A DNA stretch of 64,000 nt. Origin: Echinarachnius parma. Its lineage: Eukaryota; Echinodermata; Echinoidea; Clypeasteroida; Echinarachniidae. Shown piece after piece: positions 17,291 to 61,160 of the stretch. Position 1 is the stretch's first letter. Every line of letters begins with the position of its first letter. The position numbers and the translations under genes were made by a program. A model generated the notes under the pieces. The model was not told the DNA's origin. It saw only the letters and a list, made by a program, of their open reading frames with translations, and did not search any database. The stretch is from contig JBAMJV010001285.1 in assembly GCA_037951105.1 (NCBI GenBank), positions 154,888 to 218,887 of the forward strand, in the 5' to 3' direction.

Positions 17291-18589
17291 TTCTGTTTTT
17301 TTTTTTGGTATACCACTCATTCTCTTTAGATCAAACCCCATATATTTGTTGGTACCAGTCCTAAATTAAAAGGCTTAATGAATAGCTCTGTAGAACGAAG
17401 ACAATAGAAGTTAAGTGGCCCCTTTTATAGGTACAGGCTAAATGTGAAGGATGACATTCATGACAATGAATACAAAATTGAGAGATCTATGTAATAAATT
17501 TTGTTCAGGTTGATTTAAAAAATTGATTTAAAAAAAAATATGTCAGACAACAATGGGATGGTTCTTTTAAGGAAAAAAGGAGAAAAAAGAGGGGGAAAAT
17601 AAAAAAATAAATAGGGTGAGAAAGAGAAAGATGCTAATTCACATTTTTGTACTGAGGAGATTATTATGTTTACAGTTTTGGAGCTTGGTTGAAACAAGAA
17701 TAATTCAATTTTCAATCACTTTTTTTTTAAAATTTGAAATAATTATTATCTGAAAATCTGGCATCACATACAGTAGGCTCCGACCTACAAGATGTAGAAC
17801 CCGATTTATAGTCCAAAACTGACTTAACACCCTTCTCACTCTCACCCGACAAAATAAAAAGACATTTAATTTTCCTGCAAATAAAGTTGCTTTGGTCGAT
17901 ATTCAGACAAGTATCAGATATTTATATGAAATAAACAATCATTCCAGAGATATCTTCATGTTTTCTGAAATTTAGAAAATAAAAGAAATGGTCATTATTG
18001 GTAAATGAAACCAAGAACACAGGTACCTATTGATCTGTATGGTTGCTCACTATTCCATTCTTTTAATGTTTTAGTTAAATTCATATTTAGTGTATTATAA
18101 AAGGGATACATAAACATTTAATTTGGGCATTGATGACATAAATTATATTAAGTGTTCTTAGCAAATAAATTAGGATGATTGTTGCCATTGATAACATAAA
18201 TAGTTGTAAAAGTATACATGTGTTCTTGAGAAAACATTATATGCTTACTGTTGCCCGCATTATTATGCATGCACAGTACAATGAAACAGATCTTTCTCAC
18301 AATCTCAAAAAGCAAAGTCCCAACCTTGATCGAGTACTGCAAAAATAACATCACAATATTTCTGCCTGCATAATTGTAAGTTCACCAACGTAAATCGCAC
18401 TACGATGCCTGTTTAAACGGATATTCAATTGCCGTTCTTTGTATGTATTGTCCGCATATATTTTTTTCTCTATAGATATGGCACAGGGCAGGGTAGGACG
18501 ATTTGAGGAAAAGAAAAAAAGAGAAAAAAAACGATCAGGAAAATAGCTACGGTACCCTTAGGGGGAAATTAGCAGTACCCTGGGAATTG
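17291..18589. other. unassigned AT-rich DNA
   Basis: No exon-like segment, RNA gene or tandem repeat recognised. Could be intron. Confidence 0.4.
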
Positions 18590-19390: not shown

Positions 19391-20032
19391 ATTAGGCGTT
19401 ACTTATTGTGGTGGTTTGCATTATCAAAGGGGATATGTCATTAATGTGAACATGATTTAGATATATATAATGTATATAATGTGATATGATTGGAATGTTT
19501 ATTGAACGATGCTTGCGTCATTCGTGTTCAAGGAAAAGTAATAAACAATCTCAAACAAAGAAACATTTAAAAATAATTTTAAGCTCATAGGCTGAGATGG
19601 AAGCATAATGTAAGTTAGCAATACAGTAATTAAAAAAAAGCACATTCACGACTTGTCCCCCCAAAAAAACTTGCTCTGAAGTCAGTGGAGAATCCGTGGT
19701 ATACTGAGTTCAAACCTATATTCAAGACAATAGGTTAACCTGTTCCCTACTAGAATTTGTCATTTTCATAGAGTTATGAAGGGCCCACCAGGTTCAAGTA
19801 GGTAATGAATTAAATGGTGAAAATGGAAAGTATGATCGAGCTCAAAGCTAAAATGTTCTACTATCTAGTACTGTACACACTTTTACCATGGTCCCTACTG
19901 CTACTCTATAACACATACATACAGTCCATGCTTTCTCTAGTCTACTAGTCCTATCTATTTTTGACCCAACCTCTTGTTGTTTGTATGATCGAGTTTTCAA
20001 TTTGCGGAAATTCGCTCCCAGTAGCCCATGGC

Positions 20033-20512
20033 TCCTGAGTGACATGCAGTATGATCTGAGGAGAGAGGGTAACGTAAGATCTTACTGTCACGTAAACAAG
20101 TCTGCGCTGCCCTAGCATGTACGGGACAGTTCTATTAGTCGTGGGTGGGTGTCTCAAAACTAAAGATTTAAGAAACCTATTGAATGAACAAAATGTGAAA
20201 TGTATGACTTTATTCCCTTAGTGGCTCGCACTTCCTGAGATACATGCCGTATGAGTAGTGGGTAACGTAAGACTTTACAGTCACGTAAACAAGTCTGCAA
20301 GCACTGCCCTAGCCTTTAGGGGACAGTTCTAAGTCGCGGGTGGGTGTCTCAAATCCTAGGAACAGTTTAAAGGAAAGCTATCGAATGAACAAAATGTGAA
20401 ATGTATGACTTTAATCCCTTAGAGGCTCGCAGTTCCTGAGATACATACTGTATGAGAAGTGGATAACGTAAGATCTTACAGTCATGTAAACAAGTCTGCA
20501 AGCACTGCCCTA
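20033..20512. repeat. 200-bp satellite array, left part
   Basis: Units share CCTGAGATACATGCCGTATG, GGTAACGTAAGACTTTACAG, TCACGTAAACAAGTCTGC, GGGACAGTTCTAAGTCG, GGGTGGGTGTCTCAAA and AAAATGTGAAATGTATGACT. Two clear units, plus a diverged first one, precede the interruption at 20513, where the array is split after GCACTGCCCTA. Confidence 0.8.
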
Positions 20513-23500
20513 GGGCAATTCCGTATGAGAGAAGGCAAAAACACCACATCTCAAAGTTGAGCAATCTTCCCTAAATCAAACTGTTATCGATAGAGGAAAA
20601 CTTGAATTTTAGGAAACTGAAAACCATTTGTGTATAGCTCTATTGGTTTTGCAAATATTTCTGCTTGAATTGAACAGAAATTTATGACCTTTTATTCATA
20701 AATCAGCTTCATTTCATGAAAATGAAGTAAATCTTTTAATTCAATGATTATTTCTGCTCTTTTTCTCATATTTTCCATACAATGTAGCAACAATTACAAA
20801 TTGTAAAGCATGGGCAGTAACTTCATTGCATTTTTTTTTTGAGAAATTTTTGAAATCTATGCATATTTGATCGTAATTCCGTTACGATAAAACGTAATAA
20901 GTTTTTCTCAATATCTTATTACTTGTTCTTTAGTCATGTCATTGTGAATTCTCTTCCTTCACCACAGTCCTAAGAACTTCCAACATAATTTTCTGAAATA
21001 ATGTCACTACTTTTTCCAAAATTGGCGTAACGGTATTAGTAATTCCGTTACGTAACGGAATTACACGCACATGGTTTGTAAGGTATTGATTGATATTGCT
21101 GAAAATTAAAAAAATGTTTGTTCTCAATGTAGAAATACCCTTTAAATAGCATGAACTGTAGCCATGTAGACAATAAGTCATTATACAAGTACTGTACAAT
21201 GATGTTACTTTATGTGACTCATTGTACCCACATGCTTCATATTGCATCAATGGTGATTTAACTAAATTGATACACGATAGATAATTTCTCTAATCTCTCC
21301 ATGAACATAATAGAGATGATAATGTTCTATCATTAAATTACTTTCCAGCAAGAACCACTTGACTGAAATTATGAAGATGCAGCAGATTCACGTTTGTACT
21401 TTAGAAAGGGAAAAACAAAAACAATACAATTAAAAAAAAAATTATCCAGTGATTAGTATGACACAGTAGTATGGTGCTACATTTATTTTCTCACATTAAT
21501 TTACATTCATGTATTTTAAGATATAAATCATACCTTCAACTTTCAAGGAGATTTAATATTAATAATTTTGTAATTGTATGTAGATTTGAATATCATTGAT
21601 CAGTTAAAGGCTCATAACTCATCATTAATTATGTAAATTTGTATTAAACTGAAGCATATAAAATTAAACATAAATACAGAATAGGCTTCAAGATATTCAA
21701 AACTAAACATAATACAGGCTAAGATACACATGTTTTATTCATTATCATAAATTCAGAATACATTGAGTGTTCAGTGTGCTTCTGTATACATGCAGATCAA
21801 AGAAGAACGATGTACAAAGTATTTGCATTTTCAAATGGGAATTCCTAAAGGTGTCTTTCATTTTTGGCAATTCCATATTTATATTTTATATGCCAACTTT
21901 TTGTTTGAGGATCATACACGTTTATATCCGATATACATCTATACACGTATTTCATAGAATGGATAAAAACGCATTCCAAATTGATTTGAGAGTAAATTAA
22001 GATCAATTTAGGATGAATTTTTTAAAGAATAATTTTAGAATATAATGAGTTTATATATTAACAAATCTCGATTTTCTTGTAATTCTGTTATGCACACACA
22101 TAACTTCAGGATTTGTTCTGGTCCTTAAATGTAAGAGCTTGTGATGAACAATGCACATTCTTTACTAATGACTACAAGCAGAAAAGCAGAAAAATGTAAC
22201 CAAGAAATTGCATTTTCATGGGTGGATTTCACAGGCGTAATTCCGTTACAGTGACATTTGTTTGTCTTAAGGTAATTTCAGAGGTTAAAATAGATCATTT
22301 CTGGAAAAAAGATGTACCAAATTCAAGTTTGTAACTTAAATGATAAGTTTTTATTACCAATGAAGAATTTTTTTGTGGTAGCTTTTGCAGAAAATCATTA
22401 CATAGTTAGTGTTGAATGAAAGACCCCTTTCCGTTATGATTGTATTTTTGTCTCTGGACGCTATGTGTTATAGATCTGTAACAATCTTGGGTTCTGTTGT
22501 ACCTCTAGAACCCCTGCCAGTTATTAAAGTTTTAAAAACTGTGAAAGTGAAAGGAATTTTAAATATGATTAAGAAAACAGAGCTAAAAATCACTTATTTG
22601 TCATTCTGTAACAGTGGAATTACCCATTCACAATGCATTTCCATTCACACAGATTTCCAATATTCAGGAAGTTTACGAGGCTTTATAGCATTGAAAGTTG
22701 AATGATTTGACCTGTTTGTGATTTGTAATTGTTTAAATATTGCTTGATATTGATTATGTGCAGTTATTTAGCATGTCACATAATGTAGTACATTTTTTTC
22801 TCACAATTTAACCATTTTTCTTGAAGTAAAGGAAAAATTCTAAAATGTTCCTTTTTTTTCCTTCAAATATGGTTATTATTGTCAAATTATTGATTTTTGA
22901 AAAGTATTGAAGCTAAAATGTGAATTCTTTGTTGTTCATGTACCGATTTGTGGAAAATTTTATTTCACTGCTCAAGTTGTGTAATTCCGTTACACACTTT
23001 AGTGGACATAGTTCCTAGGATTTTCTTTTATTAAGTGGGTGCAATCCTTTTTAATTTCTTGCCTACTAATATGAAGCTGAAAATAAACCAAAATAAAGCT
23101 GGATTTTAGCGATATTTTTTTCAAATTTCACTCTTATTTGTATTTTGGCCATATTTTCATTTATTTTACACATAACAAGTTCAAAAATTGCTTTACAGAT
23201 ATGTCAAATTATGGTTTATATTCAAGTGCTAGATAGCCTTGATGTTTGTATTAGCATGTAAGAAAAGTTGAGTGCAAAATAATTGAGTTTTCCTTGTAAC
23301 TTTCAGAGATGTAATTCCGTTACAAATTTGTGTAATTCCGTTACAGTGGGTTTTTTTCAAAAAAGTGAATTTGTGAACTTATCATTGTGTTGTTTATGCA
23401 CATATTTGTTCCAAAATGAAGTTGACATTATCAAGATAGAAAAAATACATAAAATCAGTTTCAAAGTGTCTTATATTTTAGAGAAACTCAACGCAAACTT

Positions 23501-23734
23501 GTAGCAAAAAAAAAACTCCATTCTCCGGTAATTCCGTTACGGTCACACATATTGGTCTAGTGTGCAACAACACATGGAAGATATAAAACCATTTCCCTAT
23601 CATGTTGTAGCCTGGTTACCCGTGCAACTTATATAAGTATCAAAATTTACTTAAGTCATGAGAATATTGCGCAGGGAATGAAATAATGAGCAAAAAACGT
23701 CTCTGAATGTAATTCCGTTATGGTGGAATTGCCC
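20513..23734. mobile_element. 3.2-kb non-autonomous DNA transposon, copy 1
   Basis: The left end GGGCAATTCCGTATGAGAG and the right end TGGTGGAATTGCCC form a 10-12-bp terminal inverted repeat. CCTA at 20509-20512 and again at 23735-23738 flank it, and the satellite sequence continues across the empty site, so this is a clean insertion. The interior carries at least eight GTAATTCCGTTA(C/T) motifs (near 20873, 21039, 22237, 22981, 23311, 23332, 23528, 23709). No frame exceeds about 100 residues and none looks like a transposase, so mobility would depend on a protein supplied elsewhere. A 4-bp target duplication is known from several superfamilies (Sola, Ginger, some Academ). Assignment is not possible here. 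Confidence 0.85.
21039..21064. repeat. 26-bp perfect palindrome of the GTAATTCCGTTAC motif
   Basis: GTAATTCCGTTAC is followed directly by its reverse complement GTAACGGAATTAC. A related half-site, GGCGTAACGG, lies just upstream. It could be a dimer binding site or a cruciform. Confidence 0.9.
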
Positions 23735-23993
23735 CCTAGCATGGAGGGGACAGTTCTAAGACGTGGGTGTCTCAAATCCTAGGAACAGTTTAAATGAAAC
23801 CATCAAACAAACAAAATGTGAAATGTATGACTTTATTTCCTTAGTAGCCAACATTGGTTCCTGTGAGAAGTGGATAACGTAAGACTTTACAGTCACGTAA
23901 ACAAGTCAGCACTGTCCTAGCATGTAGGGGACAGTTCTAAGTCGTGGTTTGGTGTCTCAAACCTGAAGAACAGTTAATGGTGTTGTGACTGTT
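23735..23993. repeat. 200-bp satellite array, continued
   Basis: Resumes with CCTAGCATGGAGGGGACAGT, completing the unit broken at 20512, then one further unit up to the insertion at about 23994. Confidence 0.75.
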
Positions 23994-24720
23994 GTCACAT
24001 ATCATCGGATAGTGTAAACGTACATGTCCAACGGATAGAAATTTTTCAAAATCAAATTATCCGGTGGTGAAAGTGGCCTCCATATATCTTCATGCACTAA
24101 ACATTCTGCCGGATAGAACAAGTGAACAAGGTACATCAGCCGACAAGAAACGCATACGAAACGGATTGATAATTTGGCTCTCCGTCAGGCGTCCTTTTAA
24201 GGGCAATGAAACTATGGCTTTCGGTTATTATTATCGTTTAGAGGGTGAACAGACATTTGATTTGATACATAACTTGGCAATTTTGGCCTCCTGGATCCCA
24301 TGAAATCCTTACTTGAACATACCCACATTTTACTAATTCTTACGGCGGCAAAAGATGATGTTCTTGTAATTACCCGACATGCTAAATGCAAACTCTGACG
24401 TATGTGCTTAGGGCCGAACAAAAAGCTTTTCACTGATTTCAAAGCATCTACAAGTATTCAGACAATGGTTTAAATTGGTGCTATTGAAATGCATTAGTGC
24501 ATATCATTGACCGTAGTCCGCACAAACCTAATAATGGCGGCCTCCAGTGTTCGCGTGAATAGTGGTATACCCGATAGAGTTTTCACATATTTCTTCCAAA
24601 GCAGAAATCTGAGTCGGAGTAATGTTACATATAATAAACAGGCATATTAGGATGTATAAAGTAGGATAAACTCTATTCTTGAGTTGCATTGCCCTTTAAC
24701 GTTGTCCGGTGATATGTGAC
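23994..24720. mobile_element. 0.7-kb insert with GTCACATATCA(T/C)CGGA ends
   Basis: GTCACATATCATCGGATAG at the left is an inverted match of TCCGGTGATATGTGAC at the right. Shorter stretches with the right end alone (GTTGTCCGGTGCTATGTGAC near 25152 and 26034), joined to GATAATTTGGCTCT, look like internally deleted versions of the same insert, now part of the satellite units. A frame at 24064-24303 is not supported as a gene. Confidence 0.55.
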
Positions 24721-25453
24721 AAGGGCATTAAGGAAAATCGTCAAACAAACAAAATGTCAAATGTATGACATTATTCCCTTAGTGGCCAATGGTTCCTGTG
24801 AGACATACTGAACGAGTAGTGGGTAACGTAAGACCTTACAGTCACGTAAACAAGACGGCAGTGGCCTAGCGTGATTGTAGATGGTTGGACTAGTTGTAGA
24901 TGGGTATCTCAAAGCACATTTTAGAAAAATATAAAAATGTATTTATGATATTATTCCCTTTGTGGCTCACAGTTCCTGAGATACATGCCGTATGAGTAGT
25001 GGGTAATGTAAGACCTTTATAGTCACGTAGACAAGTCAGCACTGCCCTTTTAGCATGCAGGGGACAGTTCTAAGTTGTGGGCGGGTGTCTCAAACCTAAA
25101 CAATGTTCAGTTTATTGATAATTTGGCTCTTTGTCAGGCGTCCTTTAACGTTGTCCGGTGCTATGTGACGAGGGCTTTAAGGAAAATCGTCAAACAAACA
25201 AAATGTCAAATGTATGACATTATTCCCTTAGTGGCCACTGGTTCCTGTGAGACATACTATACGAGTAGTGGGTAACGTAAGACCTTACAGTCACGTAAAC
25301 ACGTCGGCAGTGGCCTAGCGTGATTGTAGATGACATAAGTTGTGGGTGGGGGTCTCAAAGCACAAAGCAAAATGTTAAATGTATTTATGACATTATTCCC
25401 TTTGTGGCTCACAGTTACTGAGATACATGCCGTACGAGTAGTGGGTAATGTAA
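24721..25453. repeat. 200-bp satellite array, continued
   Basis: Units are marked by TGGGTAACGTAAGACCTTAC or a variant near 24820, 25001, 25269 and 25440, alternating between a longer form containing TTGTCCGGTG and a shorter one. Confidence 0.75.
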
Positions 25454-25895
25454 GACCCCGTTTACAGTGAAAAAAAGGCCGGGCCGAGACGCGTCTCGGC
25501 CCGGCCTTTTTTTCACTGTAAACGCTCAAAAGGCCAAATGCAGGGCCAAAAGTGGCCGCGCATTTGGCCCCGCTCTGGAGGTAGTCTCGGCCGCGGCCGA
25601 GACGCGTCTCGGCCCCGCTTTTTCTCACTGTAAACGCACGCAGGGCCAAATGCGGTACCAAATTGGGAAAACAATTCATTGCAAATAACGCGCCTTTGTT
25701 CTGTGACCCCGGCGTGCCTCCAAAATAATGGTTAGTTTACATGCAGAGCGCCACTACGACAAGATATTGAAAGGGCGGCCGGGCCGCGAGGGCCGAGACC
25801 GCCACTGTAAACGCACCAAAATTGGGGGGCCGAGTACCGCAATTTAAGCAGGGCCGAGACGCGTCTCGGCCCGGCCCTGCACTGTAAACAGGGTC
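25454..25895. mobile_element. GC-rich PIF/Harbinger-like MITE
   Basis: A 442-bp insert with ends GACCCCGTTTACAGTG and CACTGTAAACAGGGTC. TAA lies on both outer sides (25451-25453 and 25896-25898), the 3-bp TAA/TTA duplication typical of PIF/Harbinger. The body repeats GGCCGAGACGCGTCTCGGCC palindromes, giving GC content far above the surroundings. A 140-residue reverse-strand frame through it is an artefact. Confidence 0.75.
25459..25524. repeat. 66-bp perfect palindrome
   Basis: From CGTTTACAGTG at 25459 to CACTGTAAACG at 25524 every base pairs with its partner, with the centre at GACGCGTC and no loop. It joins the terminal motif to an inverted copy of itself. A second perfect 20-bp palindrome (GTCTCGGCCGCGGCCGAGAC) lies at 25584-25603. 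Confidence 0.9.
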
Positions 25896-26420
25896 TAAGA
25901 CCTTTATAGTCACGTAGACAAGTCAGCACTGCCCTTTTAGCATGTAGGGGACAGTTCTAAGTCGTGGGCGGGTGTCTCAAACCTAAACAACAGTTTATTG
26001 ATAATTTGTCTCTCCGTCAGGCGTCCTTTAACATTGTCCGGTGCTATGTGACAAGGGCTTTAAGGAAAGCCATCAAACAAACAAAATGTCAAATGTATGA
26101 CATTAGTCCCTTAGTGGCTCATAGTCCTGTGAGACATACTATATGAGAAGTGGGTAACGTAAAACCTTACAGTCACGTTAACAAGTCGGCACTGCATGCT
26201 CTAGCATGTAGGGGACCTATTGAATGAACAAAATGTGAAATACATGTATGACTTTATTTCCTTAATAGTGGCTCGCAGTTCATGAGATACATGCTTTATG
26301 AGTAGAGGATAACGTAAGACCTTTATAGTCGCATCTATAGACAAGTCGACACTGCCCTAGCATGATTGTAGGGGGTGGAAGTCATGGGTGGGTATCTCAA
26401 AGCTAAAGAACATTCGTTAC
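25896..26420. repeat. 200-bp satellite array, right end
   Basis: Continues the unit interrupted at 25453 (TAAGACCTTTATAGTCACGT) through two to three more units to GGTGGGTATCTCAAAGCTAA near 26406, after which similarity ends. Confidence 0.75.
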
Positions 26421-26651
26421 TCAGATGCGTTGTGCCATCTTGTGCATGCCTTTAACACGCACGTTGCGAAATATGCACTGGCTCAGTGTTATGCAGTGCG
26501 CACAATCTAGCCTTGTTAAAATGGCGAACTGTTGAGTAGCGCTTGGAACAGTCCCCTCTTCATGCCGTGCATGATGATCTGTGACGAAATCCCTCAACCA
26601 CAGGAAAGGTTAAATATATATGACTTTATTTGAGACAATGTGAAAGGATAT
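26421..26651. other. unassigned DNA
   Basis: No repeat or coding feature recognised. It separates the satellite array from the second 3.2-kb element. Confidence 0.4.
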
Positions 26652-29600
26652 GGGCAATTCCGTATGAGAGAAGGCAAAAACGCCACATCTCAAAGTTGAG
26701 CAATCTTCCCTAAATCAAACTGTTATCAATAGAGGAAAACTTGAATTTTAGGAAACTGAAAACCGTTTGTATATAGCTCGATTGGTTTTTCAAATATTTC
26801 TGCTTGAATTGAACAGAAATTTATGACCTTTTATTCATAAATCAGCTTCATTTTGTGAAAATAAAGTGAATCTTTTAATTCAATGACTGTTTCTGCTCAT
26901 TTTCTCATATTTTCCATACGATGTTGTAACAATCACAAATTGTAAAGCATGGGCAGTATCTTCATTGCATATTTTTTTGAGAAATTTTTAAAATCTATGC
27001 ACATTTGATCGTAATTCCGTTACGATAAAACGATTTAAGTTTTTCTCAATATCTTATTACTTGTTCTTTAGTCATGTCATTGTGAATTCTCTTCCTTCAC
27101 CATAGTCCTAAGAACTTCCAACATAATTTTCTGAAATAATGTCACTACTTTTTCCAAAAATGGCGTAACAGTATTAGTAATTCCGTTACGTAACGGAATT
27201 ACATGCACATGGTTTGTAAGGTATTGAATGATATTGCTGAAAATAAAATTTTTTCTTGTTCTGAATGTAGAAATACCCTTTAAATAGCATGAACTGTAGC
27301 CATGTAGACAATAAGTCATTATACATGTACATGTACTGTACAATGTACAACTTTATCTGACTCATTACCTCACATGCTTCATATTGCATCAATGGTGATT
27401 TAACTAAATTGATACACGATAGATAATTTCTCTAATTTCTCCATGAACATAATAGAGATGATAATGTTCTATCATTAAATTAGTTTCCAGCAAGACCCAC
27501 TTGACTGAAATTATGAAGATGCAGCAGATTCATGTTTGTACTTTAGAAAGGGAAAAATGAAAACAATAACAAAAATTTAAAAATATCCAGTAATTAGTAT
27601 GACACTGGTTCTACACATATTTTCTCACATTAATTTACATTGATGTATTTTAACTTAAGATATAAATCATACCTTCAACTTTCAAGGAGATTTAATATTA
27701 ATAATTTTGTATGTAGATTTGAATATCATTGATCAGTTAAGGGCTCATAACTCACCATTAATTATGTAAATTTGTATTAAACTGAAGCATATAAAATCAA
27801 ACATAAATACAGAATAGGCTTCAAGATATTCAAAACTATACATAATACAGGCTAAGATATGTTTTATTCATTATCATAAAGTCAGAATTCATTGAGTGTT
27901 CAGTGTGCTTCTGTATGCAGATCAAAGAAGATGTACAAAGTATTTGCATTTTCAAATGGGAATTCCTAAAGGTGTCTTTCATTTTTTGCAATTCGATTTT
28001 TATATTTTATAGATGCCAACTTTTTGTATTTGGATCATACATGTTTATATCCGTACATGTCATGAAATGAATGAAAACGCATTCTAAATTGATTTGAGAG
28101 TAAATTAAGATCACTTTAGGATGAATTTTTAAAAGAATAATTTTAGAATATAATAAGAGTTTATATAACAAATCTCGATTTGTTTGTAATTCTGTTACGC
28201 ACACACATAAATTCAGGACTTGTTCTGGTCCTTATGTAAGAGTTTAACAATGCATACATTGTTTAACAATGCATACAAATTAACAATGCATACAAATTCT
28301 TTACTATAGACTGTACGCAGAAAAATGTAACCAAGAAATTGCATTTTCATGGGTGGATTCATGGGTGGATTTCACAGGCGTAATTCCGTTACAGTGACAT
28401 TCGTTTGTCTTAAGGTAATTTCAGAGGTTAAAATAGATCATTTCTGGAAGAAAGATGTACCAAATTCAAGTTTGTAACTTAAATGATAAGTTTTTATTAC
28501 CAATGAAGAATTTTTTGTGGTAGCTTTTGCAGAAAATCATTACAAAGTTAGTGTTGAATAAAAGACCCCTTTCCGTTATGATTGTATTTTGGTCTCCTGA
28601 CGCTACAGTGTTATAGATTTGTACCTCTAGTACCCCTGCCAGTTATTAAAGTTGTAAAAACTGTGGAAGTGAAAGGAATTTTAAATATGATTAAGAAAAC
28701 AGAGCTAAAAATCACTTATATGTCATTCTGTAACAGTGGAATTGCCCATTCACAATTTGCATTTCCATTCACACAGATTTCCAATATTCAGGAAGTTTAC
28801 GAGGCTTTATAGCATTGAAAGTTGAATTATTTGACCTGTTTGTGATTTTAAATTGTTTAAATGTTTCTTGATATTGATGATGTGCAGTTCTTTAGCATGT
28901 CACATAATGTGGGTACTTTTTTTTTTTTTTTTTACTTTGGGTTTTTCACAATTTAACCATTTTTCTTGAAGTAAAGGAAAAATTAAAAAATGTTGCTATT
29001 TTTTACTTCAAATATGGTTATTATTGTCAAATTATTGATTTTTGAAAAGTATTGAAGCTAAAATGTGAATTTGTTGTTGTTCATGTACCGATTTGTGGAA
29101 AAGTTGATCCCACTGCTCAAGTTGTGTAATTCCGTTACACACTTTAGTGGACATAGTTTCTAGGATTTTTCTTTCATTAAATTGATGCAATCCTTTTTAA
29201 TTTCTTGCCTTACTAATATGAAGCTGAAAATAAACCGAAATAAAGCTGGATTTTAGCAATATTTTTTTCAAATTTCACTCTTATTTGTATTTTGGCCATA
29301 TTTTCATTTATTTTACACATAACAAGTTCAAAAATTGCTTTACAGATATGTCAAATTATGGTTTATATTCAAGTGCTAGATAGCCTTGATGTTTGCATTA
29401 GCATGTAAGAAATGTTGAGTGCAAAATAATTGAGTTTTCCTTGTAACTTTCAGAGATGTAATTCCGTTACAAATTTGTGTAATTCCGTTACAGTGGTCTT
29501 TTTTCAAAAAAGTGAATTTGTGAACTTATCATTGTGTTGTTTATGCACGTACTTGTTCCAAAATGAAGTTGACATTATCAAGATAGAAAAAATACATAAA

Positions 29601-29881
29601 ATCAGTTTCAAAGTGTCTTATATTTCAGAGAAACTCAACGCAAACTTGTAGCAAAAAAAAAACTCCATTCTCCGGTAATTCCGTTACGGTCACACATATT
29701 GGTCTAGTGTGCAACAACACATGGAAGATATAAAACCATTTCCCTATCATGTTGTAGCCTGGTTACCCGTGCAACTTATATAAGTATCAGAATTAACTTA
29801 AGTCATGAGAATATTGCGCAGGGAATGAAATAATGAGCAAAAAACGTCTCTGAATGTAATTCCGTTATGGTGGAATTGCCC
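26652..29881. mobile_element. 3.2-kb non-autonomous DNA transposon, copy 2
   Basis: Same orientation and near-identical along its length to the copy at 20513, with the same ends and ATAT directly repeated outside both (26648-26651, 29882-29885). It includes the 26-bp palindrome at 27177-27202 and the same series of GTAATTCCGTTAC motifs. Differences are small indels (for example a TTAACAATGCATACA repeat near 28245-28290 and a T-run near 28918). The different flanks and target repeat show an independent insertion, not a segmental duplication. Confidence 0.85.
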
Positions 29882-29885
29882 ATAT

Positions 29886-34720: not shown

Positions 34721-35093
34721 CTTCTTCTTCTTCTTCTTCTTCTTCTTCTTCTTCTTCTTCTTCTTCTTCTTCTTCTTCTTCTTCTTCTTCTTCTTCTTCT
34801 TCTTCTTCTTCTTCTTCTTCTTCTTCTTCTTCTTCTTCTTCTTCTTCTTCTTCTTCTTCTTCTTCTTCTTCTTCTTCTTCTTCTTCTTCTTCTTCTTCTT
34901 CTTCTTCTTCTTCTTCTTCTTCTTCTTCTTCTTCTTCTTCTTCTTCTTCTTCTTCTTCTTCTTCTTCTTCTTCTTCTTCTTCTTCTTCTTCTTCTTCTTC
35001 TTCTTCTTCTTCTTCTTCTTCTTCTTCTTCTTCTTCTTCTTCTTCTTCTTCTTCTTCTTCTTCTTCTTCTTCTTCTTCTTCTTCTTCTTCTTC
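34721..35093. repeat. uninterrupted TTC microsatellite, 373 bp
   Basis: About 124 copies of CTT/TTC with no interruption visible, giving poly-Ser, poly-Lys, poly-Glu and poly-Arg shadow frames. It is a homopurine-homopyrimidine mirror repeat that can form triplex DNA, analogous in sequence to GAA/TTC expansions. Confidence 0.95.
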
Positions 35094-35590
35094 CCCCCCC
35101 ACTCTCCCCTTCTTCTTCTTCCCACTCTCCCCTTTTTCTTCTTCCCACTCTCCCCTTTTTCTTCTTCCCACTCTCCCCTTCTTCTTCCCACTATCCCCTT
35201 CTTCTTCCCACTCTCCCCTTCTTCTTCTTCCCACTCTCCCCTTTTTCTTCTTCCCACTATCCCCTTCTTCTTCTTCTTCCCACTCTCCCCTTCTTCTTCT
35301 TCCCACACTCCCCTTCTTCTTCTTCCCACTCTCCCCTTTTTCTTCTTCCCACTCTCCCCTTCTTCTTCCCACTATCCCCTTCTTCTTCCCACTCTCCCCT
35401 TCTTCTTCTTCCCACTCTCCCCTTTTTCTTCTTCCCACTCTCCCCTTCTTCTTCTTTTTCCCACTATCCCCTTCTTCTTCCCACTATCCCCTTCTTCTTC
35501 CCACTCTCCCCTTCTTCTTCCCACTCTCCCCTTCTTCTTCTTCCCACTCTCCCCTTTTTCTTCTTCCCACTCTCCCCTTCTTCTTCTCTC
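35094..35590. repeat. CCCACTCTCCCCTTCTTC minisatellite
   Basis: Units of about 20-26 bp, CCCACT(C/A)TCCCCTT followed by one to four CTT, about twenty in a row, directly beside the TTC tract and evidently derived with it. Pure pyrimidine strand apart from the A in each unit. Confidence 0.9.
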
Positions 35591-35930
35591 TCTTCCTCTT
35601 CTGTTCTTTATTGCTTCTTGCTCATCTCCATACATTTTCTCTTTCTCCATCTCTCACCCTTTCTCTTCATTTGAGTCTTTATTTTTCTTCCTTTTACTCT
35701 CTCTTTATCCCTATTTCTCCCCCTTTAATCATTCTCCATTGCCTTTTCACTTTTACATGGTACAAAATGTATGTGACATAACAACAATCGATAATCCTTG
35801 CCTCTCCCTCTCTCCTCTCTCTCTTCCTTTCTTCCTTACTCACCATCTTTCTCCGTCTCCCCCTCTCCGTCTCTCCCAATTATTCCCCCTCGCTTTTCCT
35901 TTTCACCTTTACATTGTACGTACATGACAT
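35591..35930. repeat. CT-rich tail with duplicated TTACATxGTAC module
   Basis: CTTTTCACTTTTACATGGTA near 35744 and CTTTTCACCTTTACATTGTA near 35899 are followed by ATGACATxACxACAA blocks, so a segment of about 155 bp is duplicated within CT-rich DNA. Confidence 0.5.
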
Positions 35931-57426: not shown

Positions 57427-57474
57427 ATTTGGTCAGAGTAGGAAGTTACTAGAGTACTGCTGCGCCTTTCATAG

Positions 57475-58110
57475 AAATAGCTTGTGAGAGTTTGTTTTGC
57501 TTAAACTCTGTTACATTCTTTTATATTCTTATATATTATTTTATATATTACCAAATTGACCCCTTGGCTGCTGGAACCTGGTGGGTTATGTACAAAGTCT
57601 ATGGGGATTTTAGAATCTCGAAGGGAGAGTACTGCGCCGCCTTTCATAGAAATTGCTTGTGAGAGTTTGTTTTGCTTAAACTCTGTTACATTCTTTTATA
57701 TTCTTATATATTCTTTTATATTACCAAATTGACCCCTTGGCTGCTGGAACCTGGTGGGTTATGTACAAAGTCTATGGGGATTTTAGAATCTCGAAGGGAG
57801 AGTACTGCGCCGCCTTTCATAGAAATTGCTTGTGAGAGTTTGTTTTGCTTAAACTCTGTTACATTCTTTTATATTCTTATATATTCTTTTATATTACCAA
57901 ATTGACCCCTTGGCTGCTGGAACCTGGTGGGTTATGTACAAAGTCTATGGGGATTTTAGAATCTCGAAGGGAGAGTACTGCGCCGCCTTTCATAGAAATT
58001 GCTTGTGAGAGTTTGTTTTGCTTCAATTCTGTTACACTTTTATATTCTTATTACCAAATTAACCCCTTGCCTGCAGGAACCTGGTGGGTTATGTACAAAG
58101 TCTATGGGAA
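57475..58110. repeat. 173-bp tandem repeat, about four units
   Basis: GAGAGTTTGTTTTGCTTAAA, CCAAATTGACCCCTTGGCTG, GAACCTGGTGGGTTATGTAC and GAGAGTACTGCGCCGCCTTT recur every 173-175 bp; units 2 and 3 are almost identical. Identical frames starting at 57672 and 57845 result from this. A short remnant (ACTAGAGTACTGCGCCTTTC) lies at 58220 and a matching lead-in at 57447. Confidence 0.9.
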
Positions 58111-58385
58111 TTTTTAGAATCTCAAAGGGAATTGGTTTAATCATTGAACATTTGTTAGCATCATGGAGAAGTCACAAAGGATATATAGAGGGGGTGTAAA
58201 TTGGTCAGGATAGGAAGTTACTAGAGTACTGCGCCTTTCAGAGTAATGGGAATAGTGCGTGTGGTTTTTGTTGTTGCTTGTAAAATTAATGGGAAGTTTC
58301 TAGAGTAATGGGTCCCTCCAAGGAGTTACTGTGGTTGAACTGGTCACATCACGGGCGTAGCGACTTATGTAATACCTCTTCATCA

Positions 58386-59624: not shown

Positions 59625-61160
59625 GACGGACAAAAACATTTGATACTGGTATGGAATTCACAGGATGTGGAAAGGTCAGACAGATCATTTCTGACAATAC
59701 GATATTACCATTTATTCAAATACTTATATTCATATTCATATATCAAATTGAAGAAAAAAAAAACTGAGAATGGGCCTTTAACCCTCTATGTTCTATAATG
59801 GAATTCACAGGATCAAGAAAGGTCAGACATATTAATTCTGACAATGGGATATTACCATCTATTCAAATACTTATATTCATATTCATATATCAAATTGAAG
59901 AAAAAAAAAACTGAGAATGGGCCTTTAACCCTCTATGTTCTATAATGGAATTCACAGGATCGAGAAAGGTCAGACATATTAATTCTGACAATGGGATATT
60001 ACCATCTATTCAAATCTTCATATTCATATTTTATATTAAATTGCAAAACTGAGAATGTACCTTTAACCCTATCAATTCTATAATTGCATTCAAGGTATCA
60101 GGAATGGTCAGACATATACATTCTGACAATACAATATTACCATCTATTCAAGTGCTCATGTTCAAATTGTATATTCATTCAAAACCATGAATAGGCCTTT
60201 AAGCCTCTAAATTCTATAATGGAATTCACAGGATCAAGAAAGGTCAGACATTAATTCTGACAATGGGATATTACCATCTATTCAAATCTTCATAAATGCA
60301 TATTTTATATTCATTTACAAAACTGTGAATGTGTCTTTGACCCTCTCAATTCTATAATTGCATTCAAGGTATCAGGAATGGGCAGACATATAATACCTGA
60401 CCTTACAATATTACCATCTATTCAAGTGCTCATGTTCAAATTGTATATTCATTCAAAACCACGAATAGGCCTTTAACCCTCTAAATTCTATAATGGAATT
60501 CACAGGATCAAGAAAGGTCAGACATATTAATTCTGACAATGGGATATTACCATCTATTCAAATCTTCATAAATGCATATTTTATATTCATTTACAAAACT
60601 GTGAATGTGTCTTTGACCCTCTCAATTCTATAATTGCATTCAAGGTATCAGGAATGGGCAGACATATAATACCTGACCTTACAATATTACCATCTATTCA
60701 AGTGCTCATGTTCAAATTGTATATTCATTCAAAACCATGAATAGGCCTTTAACCCTCTAAATTCTATAATGGAATTCACAGGATCAAGAAAGGTCAGACA
60801 TATTAACTCTGACAATACAATATTATCATCTAGATTCAAGGGCTTATATTCATATTTTATATCAATTTGCAAAACGTTCACTGTACCTTTAACCCTCTAA
60901 ATTCTATAATCCGATTAATAGGATCAGGAAATGAAAGGTCAGACTTGTAATTTCTGACAACACGATATTAAAATCTATTTAAGCGCGAATATTTATATTT
61001 CATATAAAATTGCAAAACTTTAAATGGGCCTTTAACCCCTCTCAATTCTATAACCCTAGGAAATTCACAGAACCAAGAAATACAATATTACCATCTATTC
61101 AAGTGCTATAAATATTCATAATAATGCAAAATACAGAATGCGCCTTTAACCCTCACAAAT
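59625..61160. repeat. 136-149-bp satellite with dimeric organisation
   Basis: Eleven units can be counted from the G(A/C)ATTCA(C/A) landmark (59653, 59801, 59948, 60085, 60222, 60360, 60496, 60636, 60772, 60912, 61061). Two subtypes alternate: ATGGAATTCACAGGATCAAG and TTGCATTCAAGGTATCAGG. The dimers starting at 60222 and 60496 are nearly identical to each other, so the array has higher-order structure. Common words: CAATATTACCATCTATTCAA, CCTTTAACCCTCTAAATTCT. Confidence 0.9.

Follow-up and report, generated by a model that had tools for sequence, protein, structure and literature searches.

In maize, the Ac/Ds transposons (hAT) include very different non-autonomous families that have a common 11-bp tip and carry subterminal repeats which the Ac transposase binds cooperatively (PMC3260210). 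Galileo, a P-superfamily transposon of Drosophila, has ends of ~40 bp that are conserved between families, and several transposase (THAP) binding sites lie far inside the element, at about 70, 561-577 and 701-718 bp; in its K and N subfamilies no such sites were found (PMC3688188). The bacterial Tn7-like transposons have asymmetric ends which their transposase brings into a paired-end complex (PMC13370975). Here we describe transposons with similar features in the echinoid Echinarachnius parma, starting from a 64,000-nucleotide stretch of DNA (the window; contig JBAMJV010001285.1, positions 154,888 to 218,887, assembly GCA_037951105.1), which lies in contig C1284 of the 1.2-Gb, 14,790-contig assembly that we searched. 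In that assembly, 730 bp of the COX1 gene are free of stops when translated with genetic code tables 5 and 9, and with table 9 they yield an asparagine conserved in animals, so that the host is probably echinoderm-like. The window contains two related insertions, W1 and W2 (Table 1). In our view these are quite probably non-autonomous cut-and-paste transposons, which a trans-acting transposase recognises by a shared tip together with a multi-site and usually family-specific address.

W1 and W2 both start with GGGCAATTCC and end with GGAATTGCCC, the perfect inverted repeat being 10 bp long, and as an earlier note made from the letters alone had described, they have common ends within different 4-bp direct repeats, CCTA and ATAT. 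The same note called their interiors near-identical, which is too strong for copies with 91.1% identity (138 mismatches, 56 gap openings). Its observation that W1 splits a satellite unit was borne out by excision in silico: the W1 flanks, joined with one CCTA, aligned to the adjacent 201-bp satellite across the junction (444 columns, 84%). No empty site was found for W2. We then tabulated the flanking 4-mers, as the note had proposed, for 51 complete elements, namely both window copies, 19 of 20 fetched tip pairs, the element L059 and 29 copies from a W1 search; the remaining pair, L021, was left out as its left tip is the internal tip of a W copy. Exact 4-bp duplications flanked 44 of the 51, which upholds the claim of independent insertions. 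Among the W copies read, W1 included, the 4-bp flanks matched in 27 of 30, and flanks of 5-9 bp matched in none. All 44 exact cases had a purine two positions outside the duplication, but a later B2 element with an exact TACA duplication had T there. The bases favoured at each target position read RC|ANNW|GY; 20 of the 44 duplications are all A/T, 29 have A at position 1 and 41 have A or T at position 4. With inverted repeats and a duplication of fixed length at independent insertions, these are most probably cut-and-paste, non-autonomous DNA transposons, and W contains no long frame (longest stop-to-stop, 116 amino acids), in line with the earlier reading.

The 10-bp tip occurred 11,910 times genome-wide (5940+5970) compared to 565 times (282+283) for the reversed control pattern, and the tip with AC at positions 25-26, which selects left-type ends, 4,205 times (2115+2090) compared to 29 (21+8). 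If most tips are paired, we estimate ~5,700 elements with exact tips. Sorting of the 20 fetched tip pairs and both window copies gave at least eight families common to one tip, counting the sisters B1 and B2 apart. The long family of the earlier note is one of these and not a solitary one. Perfect inverted repeats, measured in 12 representatives, are shortest in W (10 bp) and hardly longer in C and G (11 bp); D and B2 have 13 bp, and E, F and B1 have 16-18 bp (18 in B1). Among 100 left-type ends listed there were 20 distinct 16-mers, the commonest belonging to D (29), W (17), the internal tip of W2 (10), B2 (9), B1 (8), E (6) and C (5); across the 20, positions 16-18 were mostly AAC, positions 12-15 and 19-24 were variable, and the AC at 25-26 is fixed by the search pattern itself. 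When the genome was searched with the DNA of W1, 40 of 855 candidates being scored, 31 places covered the full query. Apart from W1 these are 30 copies with 96-98% identity to it, which supports the recent movement proposed earlier as fairly recent.

Further inside, the elements carry repeated sites that lie outside what the earlier note described. We took as the core of each element the 12-mer at left-end positions 15-26 (16-27 in L012), picked by position alone, and searched for it in 12 representatives, allowing up to two mismatches and with dinucleotide shuffles as controls. Counting the core itself, ten of the 12 had 7-11 copies (C 9, in both copies; W 10-11, in three; D 10; B1 7; B2 7; E 9; G 8), and L009 and L019 had 4 each; the shuffles gave a mean of at most 0.4 and a largest count of 3. 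The cores are present in both arms in seven families and in the left arm only in family F. Seven distinct cores were found in the eight families, W and C having one in common. Exact sites are still present in 29 W copies, 7 to 9 in each.

The positions of these sites are conserved. Their distances from the tips are 15-16, 184-197, 372-393 and 401-413 on the left and 369-377, 526-538 and 543-574 on the right, so that families agree to about 10-30 bp. We tested for coincidence among C, W, D, B1, E and G, omitting F as well as B2, the sister of B1: 81 positions coincided within 8 bp, whereas 5000 randomisations that kept the number of sites per zone averaged 9.3 and reached 27 at most. We also aligned the arms globally (bases 31-450 left and 31-600 right, sites included, five shuffles per pair), and in most of the 21 family pairs they scored at about the shuffled level. 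Only B1-B2 (0.92 left, 0.82 right) and C-W (0.57 left, 0.53 right) were clearly above it, with W-D, W-B2 and several D pairs slightly exceeding the largest of the five shuffles. Geometry has largely outlasted sequence, and a common descent of the arms can still be seen for C-W and B1-B2. Even L009, a relative of D only 775 bp long, retains sites L15, L193, L387 and L401. The steps of 180 and 197 bp between sites would be near the length of a nucleosome repeat.

The sisters B1 and B2 suggest how the cores might change. Outside the sites, L015 (B1) and L020 (B2) have 88% identity (1516/1726 background bases), more than within them (69/84 site bases); the seven shared sites contain GCCGTGAC in B1 and AGCGTGAC in B2 (three copies each), except for a single site in each of L010 and L013. 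The other four comparisons went the opposite way, with sites better kept than background: W1 and W2 (130/131 and 2860/3016), W1 and L024 (130/131 and 2894/3031), L025 and L059 (108/108 and 3554/3672), and L017 and L009 (52/60 and 456/698). Neither a fixed site geometry across diverged arms nor the switching of a whole set of cores was described in the portions of the literature that we consulted.

We infer that a DDE-type transposase encoded elsewhere mobilises W1 and W2 in trans, cutting at the 10-bp tip and joining this to target DNA at a stagger of 4 bp. Recognition of the ends would depend on a multi-site address made of ~12-bp core copies in both arms: the left arm has four or five (L15, ~L195, ~L390, ~L406), and the right arm has between two and four (~R371, ~R535, ~R555). 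These would be bound by the DNA-binding domain of the transposase or by an accessory protein, and the bound cores would bring about synapsis in an asymmetric paired-end complex. Because the families share tip and geometry but mostly have different cores, the DNA-binding part may differ between most families, with each core answering to its own version of the protein. More speculatively, and with more doubt than belief on our part, the group could form a lock-and-key system, in which families with one catalytic tip and geometry, most with their own 12-bp code at seven or more dispersed positions, have switched this code in concert and so isolated new families from the transposase of their parents. 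Such a system would be a way for a DNA transposon lineage to diversify within one genome. To our knowledge it is an open question how a transposon alters the DNA address of its enzyme if this requires joint changes at several dispersed sites, and B1 and B2, with the same replacement at all seven sites, are a natural experiment on it; conserved positions with unconserved sequence likewise put a geometric constraint on the missing enzyme complex.

A number of observations weigh against this reading. Duplications were unmatched in seven of the 51 elements (L011, L012, L019, L028, L033, L036 and L038), by one base in five of them, two in L011 and three in L012. The core common to W and C means that a core is not private to every family, and since the arms of these two families are partly alike, they are not independent in the coincidence test. 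F (L019, one copy) has left sites at 15, 195, 393 and 407 and none in the right arm, the third right site of D was found only with three mismatches, and both G and F are known from one copy each. Across 30 W copies, variation was almost the same in the sites (62/3231, 1.9%) as in the background (2138/92229, 2.3%), which would fit neutral decay after insertion with no later selection visible; pairwise distances between W copies were not used, as some were inflated by misalignment (maximum 0.47). Finally, neither a transposase nor a longer autonomous relative was found in the small sample of long C pairs, C relic matches and THAP frames described below, and the earlier note's suggestion to look for a longer, transposase-encoding relative with the same ends thus yielded none there.

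Sola2-like membership is possible, and we consider it unlikely, though worth weighing, that these are ordinary Sola2 members whose repeated sites are the usual Sola2 subterminal repeats. Sola2-type transposons duplicate 4 bp of AT-rich target (AWWT in one set), and their inverted repeats are short, 12-13 or 21 bp (PMC3627910); our duplications are likewise of 4 bp, with the A/T bias given above, and our perfect inverted repeats run from 10 (W) to 18 bp (B1). However, AWWT was fitted by only 9 of the 44 duplications, no Sola2 transposase could be linked to the elements, and the part of PMC3627910 consulted does not state differing sets of repeated sites for Sola2. Ginger, a candidate of the earlier note, does not fit because its ends and targets differ from those here: Ginger1 and Ginger2 have TGTNR ends and CCGG/CCGT or RTATAY targets (PMC2836005), compared to GGGCA ends and the target given above. 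Sola and Academ, the other candidates of that note, would be told by their enzymes (in Academ a transposase and a helicase), and no transposase was found in the sample described here. PHIS membership is disfavoured; the superfamily as a whole makes duplications of 0-4 bp (PMC10045372), and the sequences AT, ANT, CWG and TNA duplicated by ISL2EU, Pangu, NuwaI and NuwaII (PMC4482050) are not matched by ours. IS481EU, which has discrete duplications of ~4, 15 or 25 bp and parabasalid hosts in the material consulted, was rejected: the tip here starts with GGG, compared to TGT in Banshee, a likely member, and our flanks were compared up to 9 bp. Searched as a text string, the exact tip GGGCAATTCC returned no transposon title among the literature matches listed; GGGCAATT occurs in a piggyBat preprint, where it lies inside an end and not at the tip (PMC13405395).

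A relationship to Kolobok is improbable, despite several likenesses. KolobokP has 5'-RR..YY-3' ends, like the GG..CC tips here, duplications of 3-5 bp (3-4 or 4-5 bp for solo repeats) and hosts in three echinoderm classes, including a sea cucumber (PMC9587614). Kolobok proper, in contrast, is specific for TTAA, which was seen in none of the 102 flanks of the 51 elements, so that TTAA-specific Kolobok and piggyBac were both rejected, and a self-comparison of 11 representatives showed no direct repeats like those at the termini of KolobokP, which measure about 450 or 660 bp, so that KolobokP was rejected as well. We give as little credence to the idea that the repeated cores are promoters, host-factor sites or leftovers of internal duplication with no role in transposition. 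Duplication does spread sites, as a degenerate internal copy of the left arm of D illustrates (L017; bases 1-38 recur at 603-639 and 172-226 at 773-826, ~602 bp further in). However, the agreement of site positions relative to both tips across families with mostly unalignable arms, the sites kept by L009 and the joint change in B1 and B2 are hard to explain without a shared recogniser. That the window copies are segmental duplicates, a possibility raised in the earlier note and suggested by their position 2.9 kb apart on one contig, is refuted by their different duplications and flanks and by the fact that W1 is nearer to copies on other contigs (up to 98%) than to W2 (91%).

Returning to our proposal of a transposase acting in trans, we looked for an autonomous partner in several ways. 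A survey of stop-to-stop frames covered the first 22 elements, five of which were 9 bp short at one end, and the longest frame had 129 amino acids (L027). Family C has on its minus strand a coding relic of ~100 amino acids (about 2640-3000 in L025), and an older C copy, L060, has a frame of 180 amino acids (1243-1782). Neither had a Pfam match above the curated cut-off, and no PDB chain was matched by 70 residues taken from the frame of L060. The relic carries KWVVVQYCKENNAKKLIGQVMEAVDSNITVKFLKQ (L060) and, by resemblance, is perhaps a small SH3-like part of a lost transposase. Followed genome-wide, it gave at least 151 matches (150 of 294 candidates scored); six further places that were fetched (L059-L064) all proved to be C copies and were rejected as partners, L064 having extra sequence near its right tip. 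The genome has 192 right and 155 left ends of C, and pairing of the tips on the contigs listed (100 places for either end) gave 74 pairs, 63 at 3.7-3.95 kb and 11 above 4 kb. Three of these 11 were read, C49 (L023) whole and C2278 and C3860 by 1.3 kb each. The 1.3-kb pieces of the two longest pairs (11.6 and 11.3 kb) held a B fragment in one and, judged from recurring short matches, a ~124-bp tandem repeat in the other, with longest frames of 88 and 91 amino acids.

We also searched for THAP frames, scoring 150 of 257 candidates. On contig C32 (48894-64339; L068, L069, L070), a 254-amino-acid THAP frame lies 1.3 kb inside a B2 right end; the B2 left end is 15.4 kb distant, and TACA flanks the pair at either side. 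This candidate was rejected as an ordinary B2 with a 13.6-kb insert, since B2 runs to about 1426 and resumes at 1422. The insert has a TTAA duplication and AG-type inverted ends, AGGAGAATTCTGTTGA / AGTAGAATTCCGTTGA, both features of Kolobok (PMC9587614), and is perhaps a large Kolobok-like element. Near its far junction 151 bases were read. Of 1209 candidates 40 were scored, and in none of these but the C32 place does the right end run on into this sequence. Neither PF21787 (P-like, 68 matches) nor PF20700 (32 matches) had a match on C32. This contig has a second THAP frame, at 19518-19802 (275 amino acids open), 1.7 kb inward from a further GGGCAATTCC tip at 17838. Elsewhere, PF20700 transposase frames (606-693 amino acids open) stand head-to-tail, seven on C174:301860-331354 and three on C9873:22115-32907, with identical scores and a spacing of 4.53 or 4.82 kb, an arrangement that resembles KolobokP multimers. 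C942 and C2380 carry parallel series of THAP hits whose scores are the same or almost so, as would be expected had both haplotypes been assembled.

Some elements have further internal structure. The exact tip inside W2, at canonical position 1135, has a site of its own, and together with the internal left-arm copy of D this suggests that shorter units might move alone. The 775 bp of L009 equal the length of D left site 405 joined to right site 371 (404+371), and its sites L387/L401 double as R389/R375; its right end differs from that of D, so a simple deletion of D does not follow. L019 is foldback-like, its subterminal inverted repeats being long but imperfect (for example, 730-961 pairs with 4415-4185 at 82%). 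The window also holds a long CTT-type array (34721-35602) and 173-bp and 138/276-bp tandem arrays (57451-58130 and 59757-61053).

Table 1 Features of W1 and W2 in the window, and the families sharing their tip
Feature	Window position	Strand	Length	Remark
W1, non-autonomous element	20513..23734	-	3222 bp	canonical left tip (site at L15) at 23734
W1 target duplication CCTA, left copy	20509..20512	.
W1 target duplication CCTA, right copy	23735..23738	.
W1 canonical right end, 10-bp tip	20513..20522	+		GGGCAATTCC
W1 canonical left end, 10-bp tip	23725..23734	-		GGGCAATTCC
W1 site L15	23709..23720	-		TAACGGAATTAC
W1 site L196	23528..23539	-
W1 site L392	23332..23343	-
W1 site L413	23311..23322	-
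W1 internal site L743	22981..22992	-
W1 internal site L1487	22237..22248	-
W1 internal site L1645	22079..22090	-		one mismatch
W1 site R552	21053..21064	+
W1 site R538	21039..21050	-
W1 site R527	21028..21039	+		two mismatches
W1 site R372	20873..20884	-
201-bp satellite interrupted by W1	20067..20512	.		satellite-like sequence again after 23738
W2, non-autonomous element	26652..29881	-	3230 bp	canonical left tip at 29881
W2 target duplication ATAT, left copy	26648..26651	.
W2 target duplication ATAT, right copy	29882..29885	.
W2 canonical right end, 10-bp tip	26652..26661	+
W2 canonical left end, 10-bp tip	29872..29881	-
W2 left arm	29458..29881	-		sites L15, L196, L392, L413
W2 right arm	26652..27202	-		sites R371, R537, R551
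W2 internal exact tip copy	28738..28747	-		GGGCAATTCC, then ACTGTTACAGAATGAC
Family W			3.2 kb	core TAACGGAATTAC
Family C			3.9 kb	core TAACGGAATTAC
Family D			2.5 kb	core TAACGGAAGGAC; 775-bp relative L009
Family B1			2.0 kb	core TAACGCCGTGAC
Family B2			1.8 kb	core TAACAGCGTGAC; sister of B1
Family E			1.55 kb	core TGTCGGACGTAC
Family G (L012)			1.4 kb	core GACAGACGGGAC; single copy
Family F (L019)			5.5 kb	core TAACACCGGGAC; single copy

The elements differ from each of the systems that they most resemble. In Galileo the sites lie within long terminal inverted repeats and the duplication is 7 bp, whereas here the arms are asymmetric, the inverted repeat measures 10-18 bp and the duplication 4 bp. 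Ac/Ds has one hexamer, AAACGG, of which only 17 among 331 Ds1 elements carry at least three copies, and an 8-bp duplication; the 12-bp core described here, in contrast, differs by family and stands at fixed positions. Tn7-like transposons are bacterial, with a 5-bp duplication and sites within about 150 bp, whereas the sites here are spread over about 400 and 560 bp. NuwaI, of the PHIS superfamily, has tips that usually begin with GGG (PMC4482050), as ours do, but its duplications are CWG and ours are 4 bp of other sequence. By analogy, the workings of Ac/Ds and of Galileo, whose multiple inner THAP sites are specific to a family, make it plausible that an end complex reads many sites at once in these transposons as well.

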